Below the pieces are notes generated by a model, which made no database searches, had not been told where the DNA came from, and was given only the letters and a program-made list of their open reading frames with translations. From assembly GCA_020846775.1 (NCBI GenBank), contig JADLDG010000100.1:1-44608 (forward strand): a stretch of DNA of 44,608 bases, in the 5' to 3' direction. A program made the position numbers and the translations under genes. Source of the stretch: Nitrospirota bacterium. GTDB lineage: Bacteria; Nitrospirota; 9FT-COMBO-42-15; HDB-SIOI813. This document shows positions 4,691-28,971 of the stretch, piece after piece; position 1 is the first letter of the stretch; every line of letters begins with the position of its first letter.

Positions 4691-5788
4691 ATGGATATAA
4701 ATCAGCTTCTGAAAACAGTGGTAGGACTAAATGCATCCGATCTGCACATTAAAGTCGGGAGTTTCCCTGTAGTCAGGATTAATGGTGATCTAAAGCCAAT
4801 TGAAGGCGTCGGGAAGTTCACGCAAGAGATTGCCTCAGTTATTGCTTCCGTCCTGATGAGTGATTCACAGAAAATCCGCTTTGAGGAAAAGAAGGAGGTG
4901 GATTTTTCATATAGTGTGTCAGGTCTTGGGCGATTCAGGGTGAACGTCTTCAAGCAGCGGGGCTCAATTGGTATGGTCTTTCGCGTAATCCAGGAGAAAA
5001 CAGTGACTGTAGCAGAACTGGGTCTACCAAAGATACTGGAGAAACTTTCCCTGGAACCAAGGGGCTTGATTCTGGTTACAGGGACTTCGGGGAGTGGTAA
5101 ATCCACGACACTTGCGGCCATGATTGAGTATATTAATATGCACAGAACGTTACATATTATGACCATAGAAGATCCTATAGAGTATTTGTATACGGACAAG
5201 AAGAGTCTGATAAACCAGCGGGAGATACGTCAGGATGCAGAATCCTTCGCTTCTGCACTGAGGAGTGCATTAAGGCAGGACCCCGATGTAATACTTGTCG
5301 GGGAGATGAGGGACTTTGAGACGATATCTACCGCAATTACAGCGGCTGAGACAGGACATCTCGTACTGAGCACCCTCCATACTGTAGACTCGGTAGAGAC
5401 TATAAACAGGATCATCGGCATTTTTCCGCAATATCAGCAAAAGCAGATACGGTTTCAGCTCTCCTCTGTTCTTAAAGGCGTGGTTTCTATGAGGCTTGTG
5501 CCACGGGCCGATGGGATGGGGAGAGTCCCCGCAGTCGAGGTAATGGTCGCTACAGCAACAATTCGCGAATGTATATTGGACCCAGACAGGACAAGGAAGA
5601 TACATGATGTTATAGCCGCCGGCGCCTCTCATTACGGTATGCAGACCTTTGACCAGTCTCTCTATAAGCTATATACGGAAAATCTGATTACTTTTGATGA
5701 GGCAGTAGTGCGCTGTAACAATCCGGATGATTTTGCATTGAAGGTGAAAGGTGTCCAGTCGGATAGTGACACGAAATGGGTAAAGTAA
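4691..5788 (+). CDS. pilT: PilT/PilU-family type IV pilus retraction ATPase
   Basis: A hexameric secretion-superfamily ATPase that powers type IV pilus retraction and twitching. The 365 residues include an N-terminal PAS-like region (LNASDLHIKVG), Walker A GTSGSGKST (131-139), the Asp box (TIEDPIEYL), Walker B (DPDVILVGEMRD) and the His box (TGHLVLSTLHT). FPQYQQKQIRFQLSSVLKG is typical of PilT. The AIRxLIRE-type C-terminal motif is not clear: the equivalent stretch reads ATIRECILD, so a PilU-like role cannot be excluded. GGGAG (4680-4684) precedes the ATG. No other pilus genes lie in the window. It sits between recA and recX, and its stop overlaps the open frame leading into recX. Confidence 0.9.
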   Translation: MDINQLLKTVVGLNASDLHIKVGSFPVVRINGDLKPIEGVGKFTQEIASVIASVLMSDSQKIRFEEKKEVDFSYSVSGLGRFRVNVFKQRGSIGMVFRVIQEKTVTVAELGLPKILEKLSLEPRGLILVTGTSGSGKSTTLAAMIEYINMHRTLHIMTIEDPIEYLYTDKKSLINQREIRQDAESFASALRSALRQDPDVILVGEMRDFETISTAITAAETGHLVLSTLHTVDSVETINRIIGIFPQYQQKQIRFQLSSVLKGVVSMRLVPRADGMGRVPAVEVMVATATIRECILDPDRTRKIHDVIAAGASHYGMQTFDQSLYKLYTENLITFDEAVVRCNNPDDFALKVKGVQSDSDTKWVK

Positions 5789-23057: not shown

Positions 23058-23306
23058 TTAATGCGTCAGGACTTTATCTATACTGATGTCACTTACTATT
23101 GTACCGAAATTGTGGGTGGACAGGAGATAGTCTGTTCGATTTCGTTCGAGGTTGATTTTGTTTTCCCGTACTAATTTATCAATCGCAAGAAAAATTACAT
23201 TATATGAGTCATCCAGGCTTACTTCTAACTCTGAAAATGATATGTAACCCTTTTCCTTAACCAACGTCAGTATTCTTTCCGACGTTGTGTTAACCTTTGA
23301 TTCCAT
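23058..23306 (-). CDS. Small winged-helix-like protein
   Basis: An 82-residue protein with predicted helix-turn-helix pattern: SERILTLVKEKGYISFSELEVSLDDSYNVIFLAIDKLVRENKINLERN. This resembles small winged-helix proteins that end in a short wing after a VRENKI-type segment. A strong ribosome-binding site (AGGAGGTG on the minus strand) precedes the ATG. It is transcribed divergently from the sulfur-carrier locus across a 188-base intergenic region with inverted repeats, so it is a candidate local regulator. That role is inferred from position only. Confidence 0.65.
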   Translation of the reverse strand: MESKVNTTSERILTLVKEKGYISFSELEVSLDDSYNVIFLAIDKLVRENKINLERNRTDYLLSTHNFGTIVSDISIDKVLTH

Positions 23307-23494: not shown

Positions 23495-23701
23495 ATGAGA
23501 ATCAGGATTAATGGCAAGGATGAGGAAACGGAAGCAGTTTCGGTTTTGAATGTTTTAAAGGAAAGAAATATAGAGCCGAGGATGGTAGCTGTCGAAGTAA
23601 ATTCTAAGATGATCGAGCGGGACGATTATGGCACTACACAATTAAAGGATGGTGATGAGATAGAATTTCTCTATTTCATGGGAGGAGGCTTATATGAGTA
23701 A
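23495..23701 (+). CDS. ThiS/MoaD-family sulfur carrier with C-terminal extension after GGG
   Basis: A 68-residue beta-grasp protein with ThiS-like features: MRIRINGKDEETEAVSVLNVL at the N terminus and LKDGDEIEFLYFMGGG near the C terminus. Mature carriers end in Gly-Gly, which is adenylated and thiocarboxylated. Here Gly63-65 are followed by Leu-Tyr-Glu, so proteolytic trimming would be needed. The codons for GGG (23681-23689) also form the GGAGGAGG ribosome-binding site of cysK, whose ATG overlaps the LYE-stop codons by 8 bases. The neighbours (cysK, MoeB/ThiF, JAMM protease) indicate delivery of sulfur to a PLP enzyme, with thiamine synthesis less likely as no other thi genes are nearby. Confidence 0.85.
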   Translation: MRIRINGKDEETEAVSVLNVLKERNIEPRMVAVEVNSKMIERDDYGTTQLKDGDEIEFLYFMGGGLYE

Positions 23702-24623
23702 GAAAATTTACAACAATGCGATTGATCTTATAGGTAATACTCCCATGGTCAGGATAAATAAGATCCCCGGCCTCGATGGCGGGAATGTGTATGCCAAAAT
23801 GGAACTATTTAATCCTGGCGGAAGTATAAAAGACCGTATCTGTTTAAGCATGATTGAGGAAGCGGAAAAGTCAGGAAAGCTTCACCCTGGTGATACTATA
23901 ATCGAGCCGACAAGTGGTAATACCGGGATTGGCTTAGCCCTTGTAGCAGCAGTTAAAGGTTATAAGGCTATTTTAGTCATGCCTGAGAGTATGAGTACAG
24001 AGAGATTTGGACTACTCTCATCTTTTGGGGCTGAGGTAGTATTGACACCTGCTATAGATGGAATGAAGGGTTCTATTATAGAAGCTGAGAGACTCTTGAA
24101 GGAAAACCCCGGATATTTTATGCCGGACCAGTTCTCAAATCCGGCAAATCCGGAGTCACACAGAAAAACTACAGCTCCTGAGATATGGGATGTCATGAAT
24201 GGAAAGGTAGATGCGTTTGTGGCTGCTGTAGGTACTGGCGGCACTATTACAGGGGTTGGCGAGGTTCTTAAAGGGCTGAAAAAGGATATCAAAATCGTAG
24301 CAGTTGAACCTGCATCATCACCTGTTATATCAGGGGGTTCTCCAGGGCCGCATAAGATCCAGGGGATCGGGGCAGGTTTTATACCCAGTGTCTTAAACAG
24401 GGATATAATTGATGAGATTATACCGGTAACTGATGATGAGGCATTCGAAACAGCAAAGTTGCTTTCTAAAGAAGAAGGGCTTATGGTTGGTATATCATCC
24501 GGTGCAAATGTTTTTGCCGCCATGAAAGTTGCAAAGAAATTAGGGGCAGGGAAAAATGTTGTTACTGTGTTGTGTGATACAGGGGAAAGATATATAAGCA
24601 TAGAAAAATATTTCAGAATGTAG
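23694..24623 (+). CDS. cysK: Cysteine synthase (O-acetylserine sulfhydrylase family)
   Basis: A PLP-dependent beta-replacement enzyme of 309 residues. NPGGSIKDR holds the PLP lysine; TSGNTGIGLALVAA binds the substrate carboxylate; GTGGTITGVGE binds PLP phosphate; GPHKIQGIGAGFIP is the conserved CysK segment. C-terminal VTVLCDTGERYIS is normal. Its start overlaps the sulfur-carrier gene by 8 bases, so the two are translationally coupled, suggesting that the carrier thiocarboxylate may be its sulfur donor, as in CysM with CysO. Free sulfide use is equally possible from sequence alone. Its TAG stop overlaps the end of a repeat element. Confidence 0.93.
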   Translation: MSKKIYNNAIDLIGNTPMVRINKIPGLDGGNVYAKMELFNPGGSIKDRICLSMIEEAEKSGKLHPGDTIIEPTSGNTGIGLALVAAVKGYKAILVMPESMSTERFGLLSSFGAEVVLTPAIDGMKGSIIEAERLLKENPGYFMPDQFSNPANPESHRKTTAPEIWDVMNGKVDAFVAAVGTGGTITGVGEVLKGLKKDIKIVAVEPASSPVISGGSPGPHKIQGIGAGFIPSVLNRDIIDEIIPVTDDEAFETAKLLSKEEGLMVGISSGANVFAAMKVAKKLGAGKNVVTVLCDTGERYISIEKYFRM

Positions 24624-24748
24624 TTGACGTTGAAAAATACCCATTTGCGGCGTCAGGACATTAAATTTAAGGCTCAACGTACGAAAAAGTACGCCTCGCC
24701 TAAAATTTGATATCCTTCCTTGCAACTGTGCATTTTTGAACGTCAACT
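24622..24748. repeat. GTTGACG-ended palindromic element, copy 1
   Basis: The element starts AGTTGACGTTGAAAAAT and ends ATTTTTGAACGTCAACT, inverted ends with one mismatch. The whole ~127 bases can fold into a long imperfect hairpin; an inner stem pairs AAATTTAAGGC with GCCTAAAATTT around GTACGAAAAAGTAC. It shares GCGGCGTCAGGACATT with copy 2 (27350-27437). The first two bases form part of the TAG stop of cysK. Confidence 0.9.
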
Positions 24749-24774
24749 TGGGAACTTGTGATTGGAGGAAATGA

Positions 24775-25575
24775 TTGGGCTTCACTGACGATCAGATAAA
24801 GCGGTACAGCAGGCATATAATCCTGCCTGAGGTTGGAGGGAAGGGGCAGAAGAAGATAGGCCAATCCAGGGTATTGGTAATTGGCGCCGGTGGACTCGGT
24901 TCACCAGCGGCATACTATCTTGCCGCTGCGGGTATCGGAGTTCTTGGTATAATTGATGGTGATGTCGTTGATCTCTCAAATTTACAGAGGCAGATAATCC
25001 ATCAGACATCCGACATTGATAAGCCAAAGGTAATTTCTGCAAAGGAGAAAATCGAGGCGTTAAATCCGGATGTAGAGGTAAAAACATATCATGAACTCCT
25101 GACCTCTCATAATGCATTAAGCCTTTTTAAAGAGTATGATGTTATTCTGGATGGCACTGATAATTTTCCGGCAAAATTTTTAGCTAATGATGCAGCCGTC
25201 TTTACTGGTAAGCCGCTCGTACATGGCGGGATATTGAGGTTTGTCGGCCAGATTATGTCTATTGTACCCCATGAGACCGCCTGCTACAGGTGCGTTTTTA
25301 ATAGCCCGCCTCCCCCTGGTCTGATACCGACTTGTCAGGAGGCTGGAGTGGTTGGTGTGCTTGCCGGGGTAGTGGGGACTATACAGGCAACAGAGGTGTT
25401 AAAATTAATATTGAATATCGGGGAACCACTCAAAGACAGATTGATGACCTTCGATGCCAGCAAGATGGAATTCAGGGAAATCAAGATTAAGAGAAATCTA
25501 AAGTGCCCGGTATGCGGTGAAAATCCCACGATTAAAGAATTGATAGATTATGAACAAGAAGTCTGCAACATCTGA
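24775..25575 (+). CDS. MoeB/ThiF-family sulfur-carrier adenylyltransferase 1
   Basis: An E1-like enzyme of 266 residues that adenylates the C-terminal glycine of a ThiS/MoaD-type carrier. Visible are the nucleotide loop GAGGLG (37-42), NLQRQ (69-73), the zinc cysteines CYRC (170-173) and CPVC (244-247), and the crossover Cys187 in TCQEAGV. It lacks a rhodanese domain. It starts at TTG 24775 with GGAGG at 24764-24768; an ATG at 24771 is out of frame. The protein is a close paralogue of the one at 27463-28269. Its 3' end overlaps the next gene by 26 bases. Confidence 0.92.
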   Translation: MGFTDDQIKRYSRHIILPEVGGKGQKKIGQSRVLVIGAGGLGSPAAYYLAAAGIGVLGIIDGDVVDLSNLQRQIIHQTSDIDKPKVISAKEKIEALNPDVEVKTYHELLTSHNALSLFKEYDVILDGTDNFPAKFLANDAAVFTGKPLVHGGILRFVGQIMSIVPHETACYRCVFNSPPPPGLIPTCQEAGVVGVLAGVVGTIQATEVLKLILNIGEPLKDRLMTFDASKMEFREIKIKRNLKCPVCGENPTIKELIDYEQEVCNI

Positions 25576-26821
25576 TACCTTAAAACAAAAAATAAAAGGG
25601 CTTAAATGCAGGGAGTGCGGGAAGTTGTATCCGGCTGTTGCATTGCACGTTTGTGAGTTCTGTTTTGGTCCCCTCGAAGTTGATTATAATTACGATGAGA
25701 TCAAAAAGCACATCAGCCGGGAACGAATAGAAAACGGCCCCGGTAGTCTCTGGAGATATGCCGATCTTCTTCCTGTTGAAGGTCCGCCAACGGTTGGTTT
25801 GTACGCCGGCTTTACACCTCTGATTGAGGCAAGGAATCTTGGTGAAGAGCTTGGCTTGAAAAAACTCTATATTAAGAATGATACTGTAAACCACCCCACA
25901 CTTTCATTTAAAGACAGGGTCGTAGCAGTGGCCATTACACGGGCCAGGGAACTAGGCTTTACCGCTGTTGCGTGCGCTTCAACAGGAAACCTCGCTAACT
26001 CTGTGGCAGCCCATGCGGCTGAGGCCAGACTAAAGTGTTACGTATTTATACCGGGTGACCTTGAGGCAGGTAAGATACTGGGAAGCCTTATATATGCTCC
26101 TACAGTAGTTGCAGTGAACGGAAATTATGATGATGTGAACAGATTGTGCAGTGAGGTGGCGGGAGAGTTCAATTGGGCATTTGTTAACATTAATATCAGA
26201 CCATATTATGCCGAGGGCTCAAAGACACTCGCATTTGAAACAGCCGAGCAACTCGGGTGGAAGGCGCCAGAGCATGTAGTTGTTCCGGTGGCATCAGGAT
26301 CATTGTTGACAAAGATATGGAAGGGTTTTAATGAGTTTAAGAACCTCGGGTTGATAGACAGTGTGCCTACCAGGGTGAATGGAGCTCAGGCCGAAGGTTG
26401 TTCACCGGTAGCCTCTGCTTTTAAAGAAGGCAGGGATTTTATTAAACCTGTTAAACCGAATACTATTGCCAAATCTATAGCGATTGGCAACCCTGCAGAT
26501 GGATATTATGCCCTTAAGGCCGTGCATGAGAGTAAGGGTAATATTGAGGCAGTCTCTGACGCAGAGACCGTTGATGGTATTAAGCTCCTTGCGAGAACAG
26601 AGGGGATATTTGCCGAGACAGCCGGCGGGGTCACCATAGCAGTCTTAAAGAAGTTAGCCATGAAGGGGCTAATTCCCCGGGATGAAACCGTAGTAGCCTA
26701 TGTCACAGGTAATGGCCTCAAGACTCAGGAGGCTGTAATAAACGCTGTCGGGGATGTTGTAAGGATTGATCCTTCTATGGACTCATTTGAAAAGTCGTTG
26801 AACATCAGGGGAAAAACATAA
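25550..26821 (+). CDS. thrC: Threonine synthase-like PLP enzyme
   Basis: A 423-residue fold-type II PLP enzyme. It has an N-terminal zinc ribbon (C20-C23 and C35-C38), the PLP lysine at Lys121 in HPTLSFKDR, the phosphate-binding ACASTGNLANSVA, and FAETAGGVT with VTGNGLK near the C terminus. Classical threonine synthase converts O-phosphohomoserine to threonine. Here the gene lies between a MoeB/ThiF gene and a CysO-like carrier, 11 bases before the latter. A sulfur-transfer reaction on O-phosphohomoserine is conceivable, but ordinary threonine synthesis remains the default reading. Confidence 0.88.
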   Translation: MNKKSATSDTLKQKIKGLKCRECGKLYPAVALHVCEFCFGPLEVDYNYDEIKKHISRERIENGPGSLWRYADLLPVEGPPTVGLYAGFTPLIEARNLGEELGLKKLYIKNDTVNHPTLSFKDRVVAVAITRARELGFTAVACASTGNLANSVAAHAAEARLKCYVFIPGDLEAGKILGSLIYAPTVVAVNGNYDDVNRLCSEVAGEFNWAFVNINIRPYYAEGSKTLAFETAEQLGWKAPEHVVVPVASGSLLTKIWKGFNEFKNLGLIDSVPTRVNGAQAEGCSPVASAFKEGRDFIKPVKPNTIAKSIAIGNPADGYYALKAVHESKGNIEAVSDAETVDGIKLLARTEGIFAETAGGVTIAVLKKLAMKGLIPRDETVVAYVTGNGLKTQEAVINAVGDVVRIDPSMDSFEKSLNIRGKT

Positions 26822-26831
26822 GAGGTGGAAC

Positions 26832-27107
26832 ATGGCAATTAAGGTTAGGATTCCAACGCCGCTGCGTAGATTAACCGACGGGTTGGGAGAGGTTGATGTA
26901 TCAGGGAACACAATAGGGGAGATGCTTGGGGACCTTGAAGTAAGGTATCCCGGGATTAAAGATAGGCTTTGTGACGAGGCAGGAAACCTGAGGCGGTTTG
27001 TGAATATATATGTTAATGAAGAGGATATAAGATTTAAACAGGGCAGTGATACGGTCCTCTCAGATGGTGATGAGGTCTCTATTGTCCCTGCCATAGCCGG
27101 AGGATAG
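26832..27107 (+). CDS. CysO/MoaD-like sulfur carrier protein
   Basis: A 91-residue ubiquitin-like carrier with a native C-terminal Gly-Gly (PAIAGG). Segments RIPTPLRRLTDG, RRFVNIYVNEEDIRF and LSDGDEVSIVPAIAGG closely resemble mycobacterial CysO, more than MoaD of molybdopterin synthase. After adenylation and thiocarboxylation such carriers donate sulfur to PLP enzymes. The strong AGAGGTGG-type ribosome-binding site lies just upstream. It is flanked by the threonine-synthase-like gene and a NIL-domain gene. No mol operon genes are nearby, which argues against a molybdenum-cofactor role. Confidence 0.88.
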   Translation: MAIKVRIPTPLRRLTDGLGEVDVSGNTIGEMLGDLEVRYPGIKDRLCDEAGNLRRFVNIYVNEEDIRFKQGSDTVLSDGDEVSIVPAIAGG

Positions 27108-27111
27108 ACGG

Positions 27112-27351
27112 ATGTCACATTACAGGATAAGAATTAATTTTCCGGAGGATAAGATTACGGAGCCAATCATCTACCAGTTAGGCCGCGAATTTAATGTTGT
27201 TACCAATGTAAGAAGGGCGGATGTAAGGGAGAAGACAGGTTGGGTTGAGCTTGAGTTGGAAGGTGATTCCGCAGAGATAGAGAAGGCCGTTGAATCCCTG
27301 AGGGCAAAGGGCGTGAAGGTAGAGCCTATAGAGAGAAATATTATCGAGTAG
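27112..27351 (+). CDS. NIL-domain protein
   Basis: A 79-residue, single-domain ferredoxin-fold protein: YRIRINFPEDKITEPIIYQLGREFNVVTNVRRADV, then GWVELELEGDSAEIEKAVESL and KVEPIER. This matches the NIL domain, otherwise found at the C terminus of the methionine transporter MetN and in proteins tied to anaerobic sulfur/homocysteine metabolism. No iron-sulfur cysteines are present. It lies 4 bases after the CysO-like gene. Its likely role is binding of a sulfur amino acid or partner protein; this is inference. Its TAG stop is provided by the start of a repeat element. Confidence 0.85.
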   Translation: MSHYRIRINFPEDKITEPIIYQLGREFNVVTNVRRADVREKTGWVELELEGDSAEIEKAVESLRAKGVKVEPIERNIIE

Positions 27352-27437
27352 TTGACGCTGAAAAAGGCGGTGTACCCGTTGCGCTGAAGTCAATTGCAAC
27401 GGGTCATGCGGCGTCAGGACATTTTTGAGCGTCAACT
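27350..27437. repeat. GTTGACG-ended palindromic element, copy 2
   Basis: Ends are AGTTGACGCTGAAAAA and TTTTTGAGCGTCAACT, inverted with one mismatch. An inner perfect stem pairs CCCGTTGC with GCAACGGG. GCGGCGTCAGGACATT is shared with copy 1 (24622-24748), at the other end of the element. It sits between the NIL gene and the second MoeB/ThiF gene and overlaps the NIL stop codon. Confidence 0.9.
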
Positions 27438-27462
27438 ACTGGCAAGAGAGGGAAGATGATTA

Positions 27463-28269
27463 ATGGATTTTACTGAGGATCAGATTAAGCGCTACAGCAG
27501 GCACATTATCCTTTCTGAGGTTGGAGGTAAGGGGCAGGAGAAGCTCTGTGAATCTAAAGTCTTTATTACCGGTGCAGGAGGACTTGGATCACCTGTAGCC
27601 TTGTATCTTGCTGCAGCTGGAATTGGCACTATCGGAATAATAGATGACGATGTTGTTGACATGTCGAATCTTCAGAGACAGATCCTGCATTCGATGAAGA
27701 CAATTGATAAGCCTAAGGTAGAATCAGCAAAGATGACTTTAGAGGCCATAAATCCTGATGTTAAGGTTATTCCTTACAGGGAGAGGTTATCTTCGGCAAA
27801 TATAATGGATATAATCAAGGATTATGACCTTGTGCTTGACGGGTCAGATAACTTTCCCACAAGGTTTCTTGTAAATGATGCATGTTTTTTTAGTAAAAAA
27901 ACACTTATATCCGGTAGTATCTTCCGGTTTGAAGGGCAGGTGACTACGCTTAAGCCTCATGATGGTCATCCATGCTACAGGTGTCTCTATCCTGAGCCGC
28001 CACCACCTGGTCTTGTGCCAAGTTGTCAGGAGGCCGGTGTCCTTGGCGTACTTGCCGGTACTGTCGGAGTAATCCAGGCGACTGAGGCAGTTAAGGAAGT
28101 GCTTGGAATGGGTAGTTCGCTTGCGTCTCACTTGTTGATTTATGATGCCCTTGGTATGAAGTTTCTCAAGGTAAAGACCCAGAAAGACCCCAACTGCTTC
28201 CTGTGCGGAAAAGAGCAAAAGATTACTGAGTTGATGGACTACGAGCAGAGCTGCACACTTAAAATATAA
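27463..28269 (+). CDS. MoeB/ThiF-family sulfur-carrier adenylyltransferase 2
   Basis: A 268-residue paralogue of the enzyme at 24775-25575. N-terminal segments are nearly the same (FT-DQIKRYSRHIIL-EVGGKGQ). It keeps GAGGLGSP, NLQRQ, zinc cysteines CYRC and CFLC, and SCQEAGVLGVLAG. Divergence is greatest in the substrate-facing middle (SIFRFEGQVTTLKP versus GILRFVGQIMSIVP), which fits recognition of different carriers. ATG 27463 follows GAGGGAAG. The stop codon TAA lies inside the left arm of a perfect palindrome (28266-28331). Confidence 0.92.
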   Translation: MDFTEDQIKRYSRHIILSEVGGKGQEKLCESKVFITGAGGLGSPVALYLAAAGIGTIGIIDDDVVDMSNLQRQILHSMKTIDKPKVESAKMTLEAINPDVKVIPYRERLSSANIMDIIKDYDLVLDGSDNFPTRFLVNDACFFSKKTLISGSIFRFEGQVTTLKPHDGHPCYRCLYPEPPPPGLVPSCQEAGVLGVLAGTVGVIQATEAVKEVLGMGSSLASHLLIYDALGMKFLKVKTQKDPNCFLCGKEQKITELMDYEQSCTLKI

Positions 28270-28331
28270 TAAATAGGGACAGCGACTATTTATTATATTT
28301 CAAATAAATAGTCGCTGTCCCTATTTATTAT
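28266..28331. repeat. AATAGGGACAGCGACTATTT palindrome between moeB-2 and the JAMM gene
   Basis: Two perfect 29-base inverted arms (28266-28294 and 28303-28331) flank an 8-base loop. The left arm contains the stop codon of the upstream gene (28267-28269), and the last two bases of the right arm are the A and T of the next gene's ATG. The core resembles REP-type palindromes spread by RAYT transposases. In RNA it would form a very stable hairpin; lacking a U tract, it is not a classical terminator. Confidence 0.93.
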
Positions 28332-28728
28332 GCTAAAAGTTCCTTCCAATATTTCCAGTGCCATGCTTGAACATGCAAAGACTGATTTTCCCCTTGAGTG
28401 TTGCGGAATACTTGGAGGTAAGGGTGATGAGGCAACACACATCTACCGCATGAGAAATATTGACAAATCCAAAGTAACTTACCTTATGGACCCGGCTGAG
28501 CAGATGAAGGTTTTTAAAGAGATGAGGAGTCTTGGGATAGAATTGAAGGCTATATACCATTCTCATCCCAACCATCCTGCCTTACCTTCACGAACAGATG
28601 TTGAACTCGCCTACTATCCTGAAGCGGTCTATATTATTATCTCGATAAATGACAGCAAGGAAACAAAGATCGGCAGTTTCAATATAGTGGATAAAAATAT
28701 TACAATAGCAGAAATAGACATTCAGTAG
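28330..28728 (+). CDS. JAMM/Mov34 (M67) metalloprotease
   Basis: A 132-residue zinc protease of the Mec+/QbsD class. Catalytic residues are visible: Glu23 (PLECCGIL), the zinc ligands His77 and His79, and Ser87 with Asp90 (HSHPNHPALPSRTD). Relatives remove C-terminal residues beyond Gly-Gly of sulfur carriers or release cysteine from a CysO-Cys adduct. Both jobs fit this locus, where one carrier has a LYE tail and the other is CysO-like. There is no ribosome-binding site: the bases upstream of the ATG belong to the palindrome, so translation may depend on ribosomes finishing the upstream gene. Confidence 0.9.
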   Translation: MLKVPSNISSAMLEHAKTDFPLECCGILGGKGDEATHIYRMRNIDKSKVTYLMDPAEQMKVFKEMRSLGIELKAIYHSHPNHPALPSRTDVELAYYPEAVYIIISINDSKETKIGSFNIVDKNITIAEIDIQ

Positions 28729-28731
28729 GTT

Positions 28732-28971
28732 ATGGTTAAACGCTCTATCTGTTTTGCCACAGGTTCCGTATTAGTAGTTATTGGACTGTTAGGCTTCCTG
28801 CTTCCATTTTTTCCTGGTTTTGTCCCATTTATCATCGGGTTAGTTTTTCTTTCACGGTCAAGCTCATTCATAAGGCGGAAAATGTCCAGGCTTAAGACCA
28901 TGTTCCCAAAGCAATATGCTAAGTTTAATGAGATAAAGGGAAGGTTCTATGATAAAGATATTGACGAATAA
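28732..28971 (+). CDS. Small membrane protein, PGPGW-like
   Basis: A 79-residue protein with two hydrophobic segments (about residues 6-23 and 29-42) joined by a Pro/Gly turn (PFFPGFVPF), then a basic cytoplasmic tail (SSFIRRKMSRLKTMF). The layout resembles the small PGPGW transmembrane family of unknown function. It starts 3 bases after the JAMM protease gene and so may be co-transcribed. Nothing in the sequence links it to sulfur metabolism. Confidence 0.65.
   Translation: MVKRSICFATGSVLVVIGLLGFLLPFFPGFVPFIIGLVFLSRSSSFIRRKMSRLKTMFPKQYAKFNEIKGRFYDKDIDE

Follow-up and report, generated by a model that had tools for sequence, protein, structure and literature searches.

The window analysed here is a stretch of 44,608 nucleotides (contig JADLDG010000100.1, assembly GCA_020846775.1) of a Nitrospirota bacterium, and the locus in question, at 23495-28728, encodes two ubiquitin-like sulfur carriers (C1 and C2), two E1-like adenylyltransferases (E1a and E1b), a CysK-type cysteine synthase, a threonine-synthase-like (ThrC-like) enzyme, a NIL-domain protein and a JAMM protease. 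Among the closest described systems, mycobacterial CysO, CysM and Mec+ work with MoeZ, and the Wolinella system consists of HcyS, HcyD, HcyF and MetY. In the MetM/MetO route to homocysteine, thiocarboxylated MetO is reportedly the sulfur donor. MetM was identified as a homocysteine synthase in Streptomyces by Hasebe et al. (2024, AEM 90:e01247-24), as passages of PMC12172450 relate; these passages also give identities of 51.6% between a Microcystis aeruginosa ThrC and MetM and of 47.25% between its neighbouring carrier and metO, and imply that an S-adenosylmethionine (SAM) riboswitch precedes metM in S. albulus. Class 4c of Iyer, Burroughs, and Aravind (2006; PMC1779556) comprises operons of ThiS/MoaD, rhodanese-fused E1, JAB and cysteine synthase; the paper also describes operons with O-acetylhomoserine sulfhydrylase. 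A paper on Pseudomonas cysteine synthases mentions CysO solely in its reference list, and no description of the eight-gene combination was recognised among the papers listed in searches of open-licence PubMed Central.

The locus resembles each of these systems in part. As in the MetM/MetO route, the ThrC-like enzyme adjoins a MoaD/CysO-like carrier, the genome also encodes a separate ThrC, and SAM riboswitches occur in some relatives; unlike that route, the window adds its own E1, a NIL protein, a JAMM protease and a second carrier with CysK, and holds no riboswitch. C2 is nearest CysO, and the JAMM protein is present as Mec+ is in mycobacteria, but C2 has a ThrC-like enzyme as its neighbouring client, the cysteine synthase of the locus is CysK-type (a CysM-like enzyme lies only on contigs C103/C104) and the E1s have no rhodanese domain. 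A ThiS-like carrier with a masked C-terminus, an E1 and a JAMM protein recall the Wolinella system, although the genome has no full MetY (no PF01053 match above 33 bits) and C1 pairs with CysK. Class 4c neighbourhoods hold the same four protein kinds as the window, but their E1 is rhodanese-fused, and the sections of PMC1779556 concerned mention no ThrC-like enzyme, NIL protein, second carrier or second E1. Unlike the ThiS of thiamine synthesis, which lies beside thiG on contig C47, C1 is not linked to thiG.

It is fairly probable that the locus forms a compound operon for sulfur amino acids in which two carrier channels run, one to cysteine (C1 with CysK) and one to homocysteine (C2 with the ThrC-like enzyme). 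The homocysteine half is a known route; what looks new is the compound operon, with its pair of preserved E1 lineages, its NIL partner and its carrier fusions. The eight same-strand open reading frames (ORFs), with the domains and the overlaps or short gaps that a sequence-only reading had assigned to them, were confirmed from the ORFs, Pfam and NCBIfam (Table 1). The C1 and CysK ORFs overlap by 8 bases and those of E1a and the ThrC-like enzyme by 26 bases, while 151 bases separate CysK from E1a.

Table 1. Features of the sulfur-carrier locus and the gene that follows it (positions in the window; aa, amino acids; PLP, pyridoxal phosphate).
Feature	Position	Strand	Profile evidence
C1, ThiS/HcyS-like sulfur carrier, 68 aa	23495-23701	+	Pfam ThiS 3.8e-12; NCBIfam thiS 64.5 bits (cut-off 37.45)
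CysK-type cysteine synthase, 309 aa	23694-24623	+	Pfam PALP 3.8e-81; NCBIfam cysK TIGR01139 451.7 bits (cut-off 350.95)
E1a, MoeB/ThiF-type adenylyltransferase without rhodanese domain, TTG start	24775-25575	+	Pfam ThiF 9.6e-85
ThrC-like PLP enzyme (MetM-like, predicted homocysteine synthase)	25550-26821	+	Pfam PALP 1.1e-70; NCBIfam thrC 320.7 bits (cut-off 167.1)
C2, CysO/MetO-like sulfur carrier, 91 aa, AIAGG end	26832-27107	+	Pfam ThiS 8e-18
NIL-domain protein, free-standing, 79 aa	27112-27351	+	Pfam NIL 1.5e-16
E1b, second MoeB/ThiF-type adenylyltransferase	27463-28269	+	Pfam ThiF 1.9e-81
JAMM metalloprotease, HSHx7Sx2D site intact	28330-28728	+	Pfam Prok-JAB 4.2e-26
Small membrane protein, weak DUF454/PGPGW, directly after JAMM	28732-28971	+	Pfam

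Conservation of the operon and its two E1 lineages

The window's own genome (G000; 2.73 Mb in 136 contigs) was placed in a set of 61 with 60 relatives, nine from the same family and 51 from the same phylum, and a ThrC-like gene was counted at >300 bits in 45 of the 61. Gene order was compared across 120 ThrC-like loci, namely those of 40 of the 44 other genomes with the gene and the best 80 loci of one collection scan, with genes called by profiles built from the loci; not all are independent, as L053 and L116 have the same sequences (one genome) and L054 and L140 likewise. The E1 rows of these two relatives are identical to those of the named records, Leptospirillum for L116 and a Nitrospirae metagenome-assembled genome for L140, which gives Nitrospirota as the phylum. 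The exact eight-gene order was found in 33 of these 120 loci, mostly of Nitrospirota, where they span several families, and including Nitrospira sp. (L101, L104, L105, L109) and Leptospirillum sp. (L116), and six further loci had the order minus a local JAMM gene. A C2-type carrier was present in 115 loci, across phyla, and a NIL protein in 71, while 44 loci, many of them cyanobacterial, had the ThrC-like gene and carrier only. The neighbourhood search proposed in the sequence-only reading thus found the order conserved, not a majority of relatives with unrelated neighbours, and the eight-gene cluster is a real conserved operon, more than a product of chance. One locus (L070) carries a HEARO RNA (HNH-endonuclease-associated element) at 5415-5661, between CysK and E1a.

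In some relatives the operon stands in a methionine context. The genes metK and ahcY lay directly before C1 in 10 of 10 Leptospirillum-group loci (L053 and L116 being one genome, and ahcY of L110 being in two pieces), and a SAM-II riboswitch preceded metK in six of the eight that were scanned (absent from L072 and L114; L110 and L116 fell outside the scan). A SAM-alpha riboswitch was located directly before the operon in two loci of family f7 (L055, L056). Scans of L048, L051, L112, L113, L054, L057, L058, L059, L061 and L063 gave no SAM riboswitch at the gathering score.

E1a and E1b, of 266 and 268 residues and with a ThiF domain only (Pfam), are 59% identical. The NxQRQ and CxEAG motifs and the zinc cysteines occurred in 30/30 E1a and 33/33 E1b proteins, window included, and DG[ST]DNF in 25/30 and 33/33, respectively. 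A tree of 104 rows placed the upstream E1s in one group (44/44 rows, support 94/42) and the downstream E1s in another (45 rows including the cut-off locus L064, support 96/88). The main family groups reappeared within both, so that the two copies probably separated, on this sequence comparison, earlier than the sampled radiation and have stayed in position ever since.

The suggestion that E1a goes with C1 and E1b with the CysO-like carrier found moderate support from loci with a single E1. Of eight such loci with CysK, five, mostly also with C1 (L054, L056, L057, L140, L148), grouped with E1a, and the other three (L120, L170, L178) with neither E1. Those without C1-CysK in the stretch read (L059 of f11, L063 of f15, L065 of f13, L066 of f12, and the cut-off L064) grouped with E1b. 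The Rokuibacteriota locus L138, with a single E1 and no C1-CysK, lay on the E1a side as an exception to the pairing; the E1s of L120, L174, and L178 were outside both groups, and that of L170 was beside the third ThiF of G000.

Predicted homocysteine and cysteine routes

The ThrC-like enzyme has an N-terminal CxxC...CxxC ribbon, also present in 38/38 relatives examined, and is 39% identical to the canonical ThrC of G000, which is encoded on contig C115 next to homoserine dehydrogenase and a putative homoserine kinase. A tree of 39 proteins (one of which, L066_ThrC, is a fragment, 17% filled, on a very long branch) joined the ThrC-like proteins in one clade (100/99) that included Nonomuraea and Microcystis novacekii proteins, the latter from a different species than the M. 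aeruginosa enzyme of PMC12172450. Outside this clade fell nine canonical ThrC and, from haloarchaea, three threonine synthases without an annotated carrier alongside, as judged from the PLSDB gene table, itself incomplete. Thirty-one aligned columns were fixed differently between 26 ThrC-like and nine canonical proteins (at least 95% and at least 85% alike). The homologue of the actinomycete Nonomuraea is 52% identical to the window enzyme, and its genes follow the order SAM riboswitch (68.7 bits), enzyme, carrier with an AVAGG end. Identity as a cysteate synthase was rejected (72.7 bits against an NCBIfam cut-off of 324.9). The candidate MetM-like assignment, a matter of sequence similarity, is bridged to S. 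albulus MetM solely through the published 51.6% Microcystis identity.

For C2, NCBIfam was borderline with the MoaD/SAMP1 models, and the nearest solved chain was 3dwg_C (E 4.7e-25), which we take to be the CysO of the CysM-CysO complex. No full MetY/MetB-type enzyme was found in G000 with PF01053 (best partial match 32.4 bits), nor a DUF39/HcyBio homocysteine synthase; a methionine-synthase domain is encoded on contig C58. Across the set, other homocysteine-synthase families were present in 10/45 genomes with the ThrC-like gene vs 14/16 without it (Fisher test, p 6.7e-6, and 4.0e-5 for genomes at least 90% complete, with shared ancestry ignored and genome lists compiled by hand). A full PF01053 enzyme was counted here at 100 bits, a line of the analyst's choice; 57 of the 61 genomes pass Pfam's own cut-off, mostly with partial matches. 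In 35/45 genomes the families searched offered no candidate homocysteine synthase other than the ThrC-like enzyme. The product of its route with C2, which the sequence-only reading had left at another amino acid, can be sharpened to homocysteine as the most likely one, formed along the MetM/MetO route already in print. The CysO-like carrier may serve more than one client, because G000 has a CysM-like enzyme elsewhere.

The ThrC-like (MetM-like) gene was also seen in five Aquificota loci (L117, L118, L128, L152, L173), with an adjoining carrier found in L128, L152, and L173 only, and is therefore a candidate for the homocysteine route of Aquifex aeolicus, called undiscovered in a passage of Price et al. 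(2018). One relative (G025, family f9, 99% complete) had no ThrC-like gene, full PF01053 enzyme, HcyBio or strong JAMM, and its cysteine-synthase match was weak; it is possibly auxotrophic or uses an unknown route.

C2 ends exactly at GG, but C1 extends past its glycines: its C-terminus is FLYFMGGG-LYE, with the glycines masked by a tail. Its nearest solved chain, the thiamine-biosynthesis protein ThiS (2k5p), reads FLYFMGGGKL at the aligned end. A GGG end was found in 0/28 C1 relatives, 23 of which had 1-9 extra residues and five of which were fused to CysK. Consistent with the proposal that C1 goes with CysK, the two are neighbours in the eight-gene loci and lie in one ORF in seven loci, including L108 and L148. 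In the predicted fold of the natural L108 fusion the carrier part was mostly at a pLDDT <50, so no geometric argument was drawn from it.

Cysteine synthases were counted as TIGR01136 matches with E up to 1e-50, and their proximity to the ThrC-like gene was compared by eye. Exactly one match was found in 34/45 genomes with the ThrC-like gene, two or more in 10 and none in G008. The sole match was near the ThrC-like gene in 28 of those 34; the other six were G028, whose contig is broken there, and five genomes with a locus that lacks CysK, all members of f11, f15, or f16. A CysM-like enzyme was present in 7/10 genomes of the window's family (f1), and the nearest solved chains to that of G000 were 3dwg_A and 3dki_A (cysteine synthase B / O-phosphoserine sulfhydrylase). 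The two contigs that carry it (L183, L184) are ~90% identical and each ends inside the gene, and the assembly probably combines two strains.

Other roles for the carriers and another partner for CysK were considered and rejected. G000 has a separate ThiS with thiG and thiamine monophosphate synthase on C47, and a MoaD fused to MoaE near moaC on C51, so that C1 and C2 come in addition to the carriers for thiamine and molybdenum cofactor synthesis. The CysE-CysK complex is anchored by a CysE ending in Ile, and the C-terminal residue of the G000 CysE is not Ile.

NIL protein, JAMM protease and carrier fusions

The C-terminal NIL/C2 domain of MetN is methionine-sensing. The free NIL protein matched this MetN domain by profile (3dhx_A, E 1.7e-9), and its model (pLDDT 82.5) had its best Foldseek match at 2.0e-5 to MetN chains, with VIA Z of 10.0-11.9 to MetN chains and <=9.5 for the other chains listed. 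By analogy, it probably signals to the homocysteine channel how much methionine (or SAM) there is. C2 and NIL are fused in one ORF in three loci (L119 9239-9760, L122 3041-3475, L174 9279-9794), with the AIAGG glycines internal, so that cutting would be needed to expose the carrier end. In an NC10 bacterium (L178 3034-4161), a carrier domain and an E1 share one ORF, near CysK-like, JAMM-like and two NIL matches.

The JAMM motif HxHx7Sx2D was found in 30/30 relatives and in the window. The expectation of a single protease for both carriers fits the finding that the locus has a single JAMM and that G000 has no Prok-JAB match over the cut-off other than that of the window; f2 genomes without a local JAMM had Prok-JAB matches elsewhere. 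The MoaD-MoaE fusion of G000 (L097 6883-7560, - strand) is another likely JAMM substrate, and DRJAMM of Deinococcus cleaves such a fusion according to passages of PMC8832034. Given that fusion and one JAMM over the cut-off, the window protease may, by analogy, have several substrates. Carrier tails were surveyed in 40 carriers fetched (L201, L215, and L233 were MoaD-type; L235 had no carrier frame and was left out). The ThiS proteins of f4, from genomes with no JAMM over the cut-off, ended at GGG (3/3), and tails were mixed in JAMM-bearing genomes.

At the edges of the locus, the small membrane protein that follows the JAMM gene was present in 7/40 relatives' loci, all of the window's own family, and is probably an accessory or unrelated to the operon. 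Divergent from C1, a small winged-helix-like protein is encoded at 23058-23306 (- strand); by eye it was likened to an 86-residue protein that contig C22 encodes ahead of the third ThiF (L098 6968-7228), and it is possibly a regulator of both.

Proposed scheme, alternatives and significance

We infer the following scheme, including its chemical steps, the carrier-E1 pairing and the roles of the JAMM and NIL proteins, from the gene content and comparisons above. E1a would adenylate and thiocarboxylate C1, and CysK would take sulfur from the C1 thiocarboxylate onto an activated serine, probably O-acetylserine because CysE is present, to give cysteine. E1b would charge C2, whose sulfur the ThrC-like enzyme would transfer onto O-phosphohomoserine; the resulting homocysteine would be methylated by MetH to methionine. 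The JAMM protease would trim masked carrier ends (the C1 tail, the fusions) and/or release the amino acid from its carrier, and the NIL protein would sense methionine (or SAM) for the homocysteine channel. In the sequence-only reading, the two parallel sulfur-carrier routes, the C1-CysK pair and the single JAMM have held up, with the E1 pairing at moderate strength. A more integrated picture can be put forward only tentatively: a methionine-sensing assembly line of two E1-carrier channels for cysteine and homocysteine, which split ahead of the sampled radiation and stayed in place, and in which carriers are made as JAMM-cut precursors (C1-CysK, C2-NIL), like ubiquitin fusions, and the free NIL protein is the methionine-binding feedback subunit of the MetM/MetO pair.

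Several observations weigh against the two-channel operon. The eight genes include no sulfurtransferase, and neither E1 has a rhodanese domain. The upstream E1 group is supported at just 94/42, and the single-E1 loci L138, L120, L170, and L178 do not fit a simple carrier pairing. Six loci with the seven other genes have no local JAMM, some of them near contig ends, and G025, with no strong JAMM (25.4 bits, cut-off 25), has tails on both carriers read; with the mixed pattern elsewhere, a tail alone is therefore no proof of JAMM processing. Neither the window nor, at the gathering score, nine other eight-gene loci scanned from outside the Leptospirillum group (L036, L039, L041, L046, L047, L102, L104, L105, L111) had a SAM riboswitch, and the window had no riboswitch of any kind. 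All seven f10 genomes have, in addition to the ThrC-like gene, a strong PF01053 match (six full, and in two pieces in G034). G000 has the CysM-like enzyme on C103/C104, and with CysE present CysK could use free sulfide. Passages of PMC12172450 report that the Microcystis aeruginosa relative acted as a threonine synthase/deaminase, with no in vivo increase in methionine.

The use of free sulfide leads to an explanation that is unlikely but merits attention, in which the C2 channel makes homocysteine while CysK is an ordinary O-acetylserine sulfhydrylase, with C1 and E1a either acting on a different acceptor or regulating CysK. In G000 CysE passes its cut-off, CysK is canonical by profile and not CysM-like, and E1s can be shared among pathways, as the abstract of PMC3227635 describes for MoeZR; yet seven loci encode C1 and CysK in a single ORF, the eight-gene loci place the two side by side, and thiamine has its own ThiS. 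The in vitro activities of the Microcystis enzyme, together with a score over the NCBIfam thrC cut-off, speak for a further proposal, in which the ThrC-like enzyme acts as a second threonine synthase or as a threonine deaminase and the carriers work for cysteine alone. This is improbable: a canonical ThrC already stands with homoserine dehydrogenase and the proposed homoserine kinase, the ThrC-like gene has a carrier in 115/120 loci across phyla, 31 columns separate it from canonical ThrC, SAM riboswitches precede some relatives and the search of G000 for two other homocysteine-synthase families gave no full member.

A role in bacterial ubiquitin-like protein modification, with the E1s conjugating carriers to proteins and the JAMM protease removing them, is very improbable. 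None of the eight genes is E2-like, and linkage to amino-acid enzymes, metK, ahcY and SAM riboswitches is tight, although C2 and the JAMM protein have sub-threshold matches to the archaeal models of SAMP1 and desampylase and conjugation was raised for JAB-E1 operons by Iyer et al. (2006), in passages of PMC1779556.

For the two-channel operon, the consequences reach a lineage that includes Nitrospira and Leptospirillum. The CysK of the locus is the only cysteine synthase found in 28/45 genomes and the ThrC-like enzyme the sole homocysteine candidate among the families searched in 35/45, and both are tied to ubiquitin-like carriers. Because curated models label these proteins thrC, moeB, thiS, and cysK, a methionine gap would be predicted for such genomes. 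The carrier fusions, in turn, make JAMM processing directly testable.

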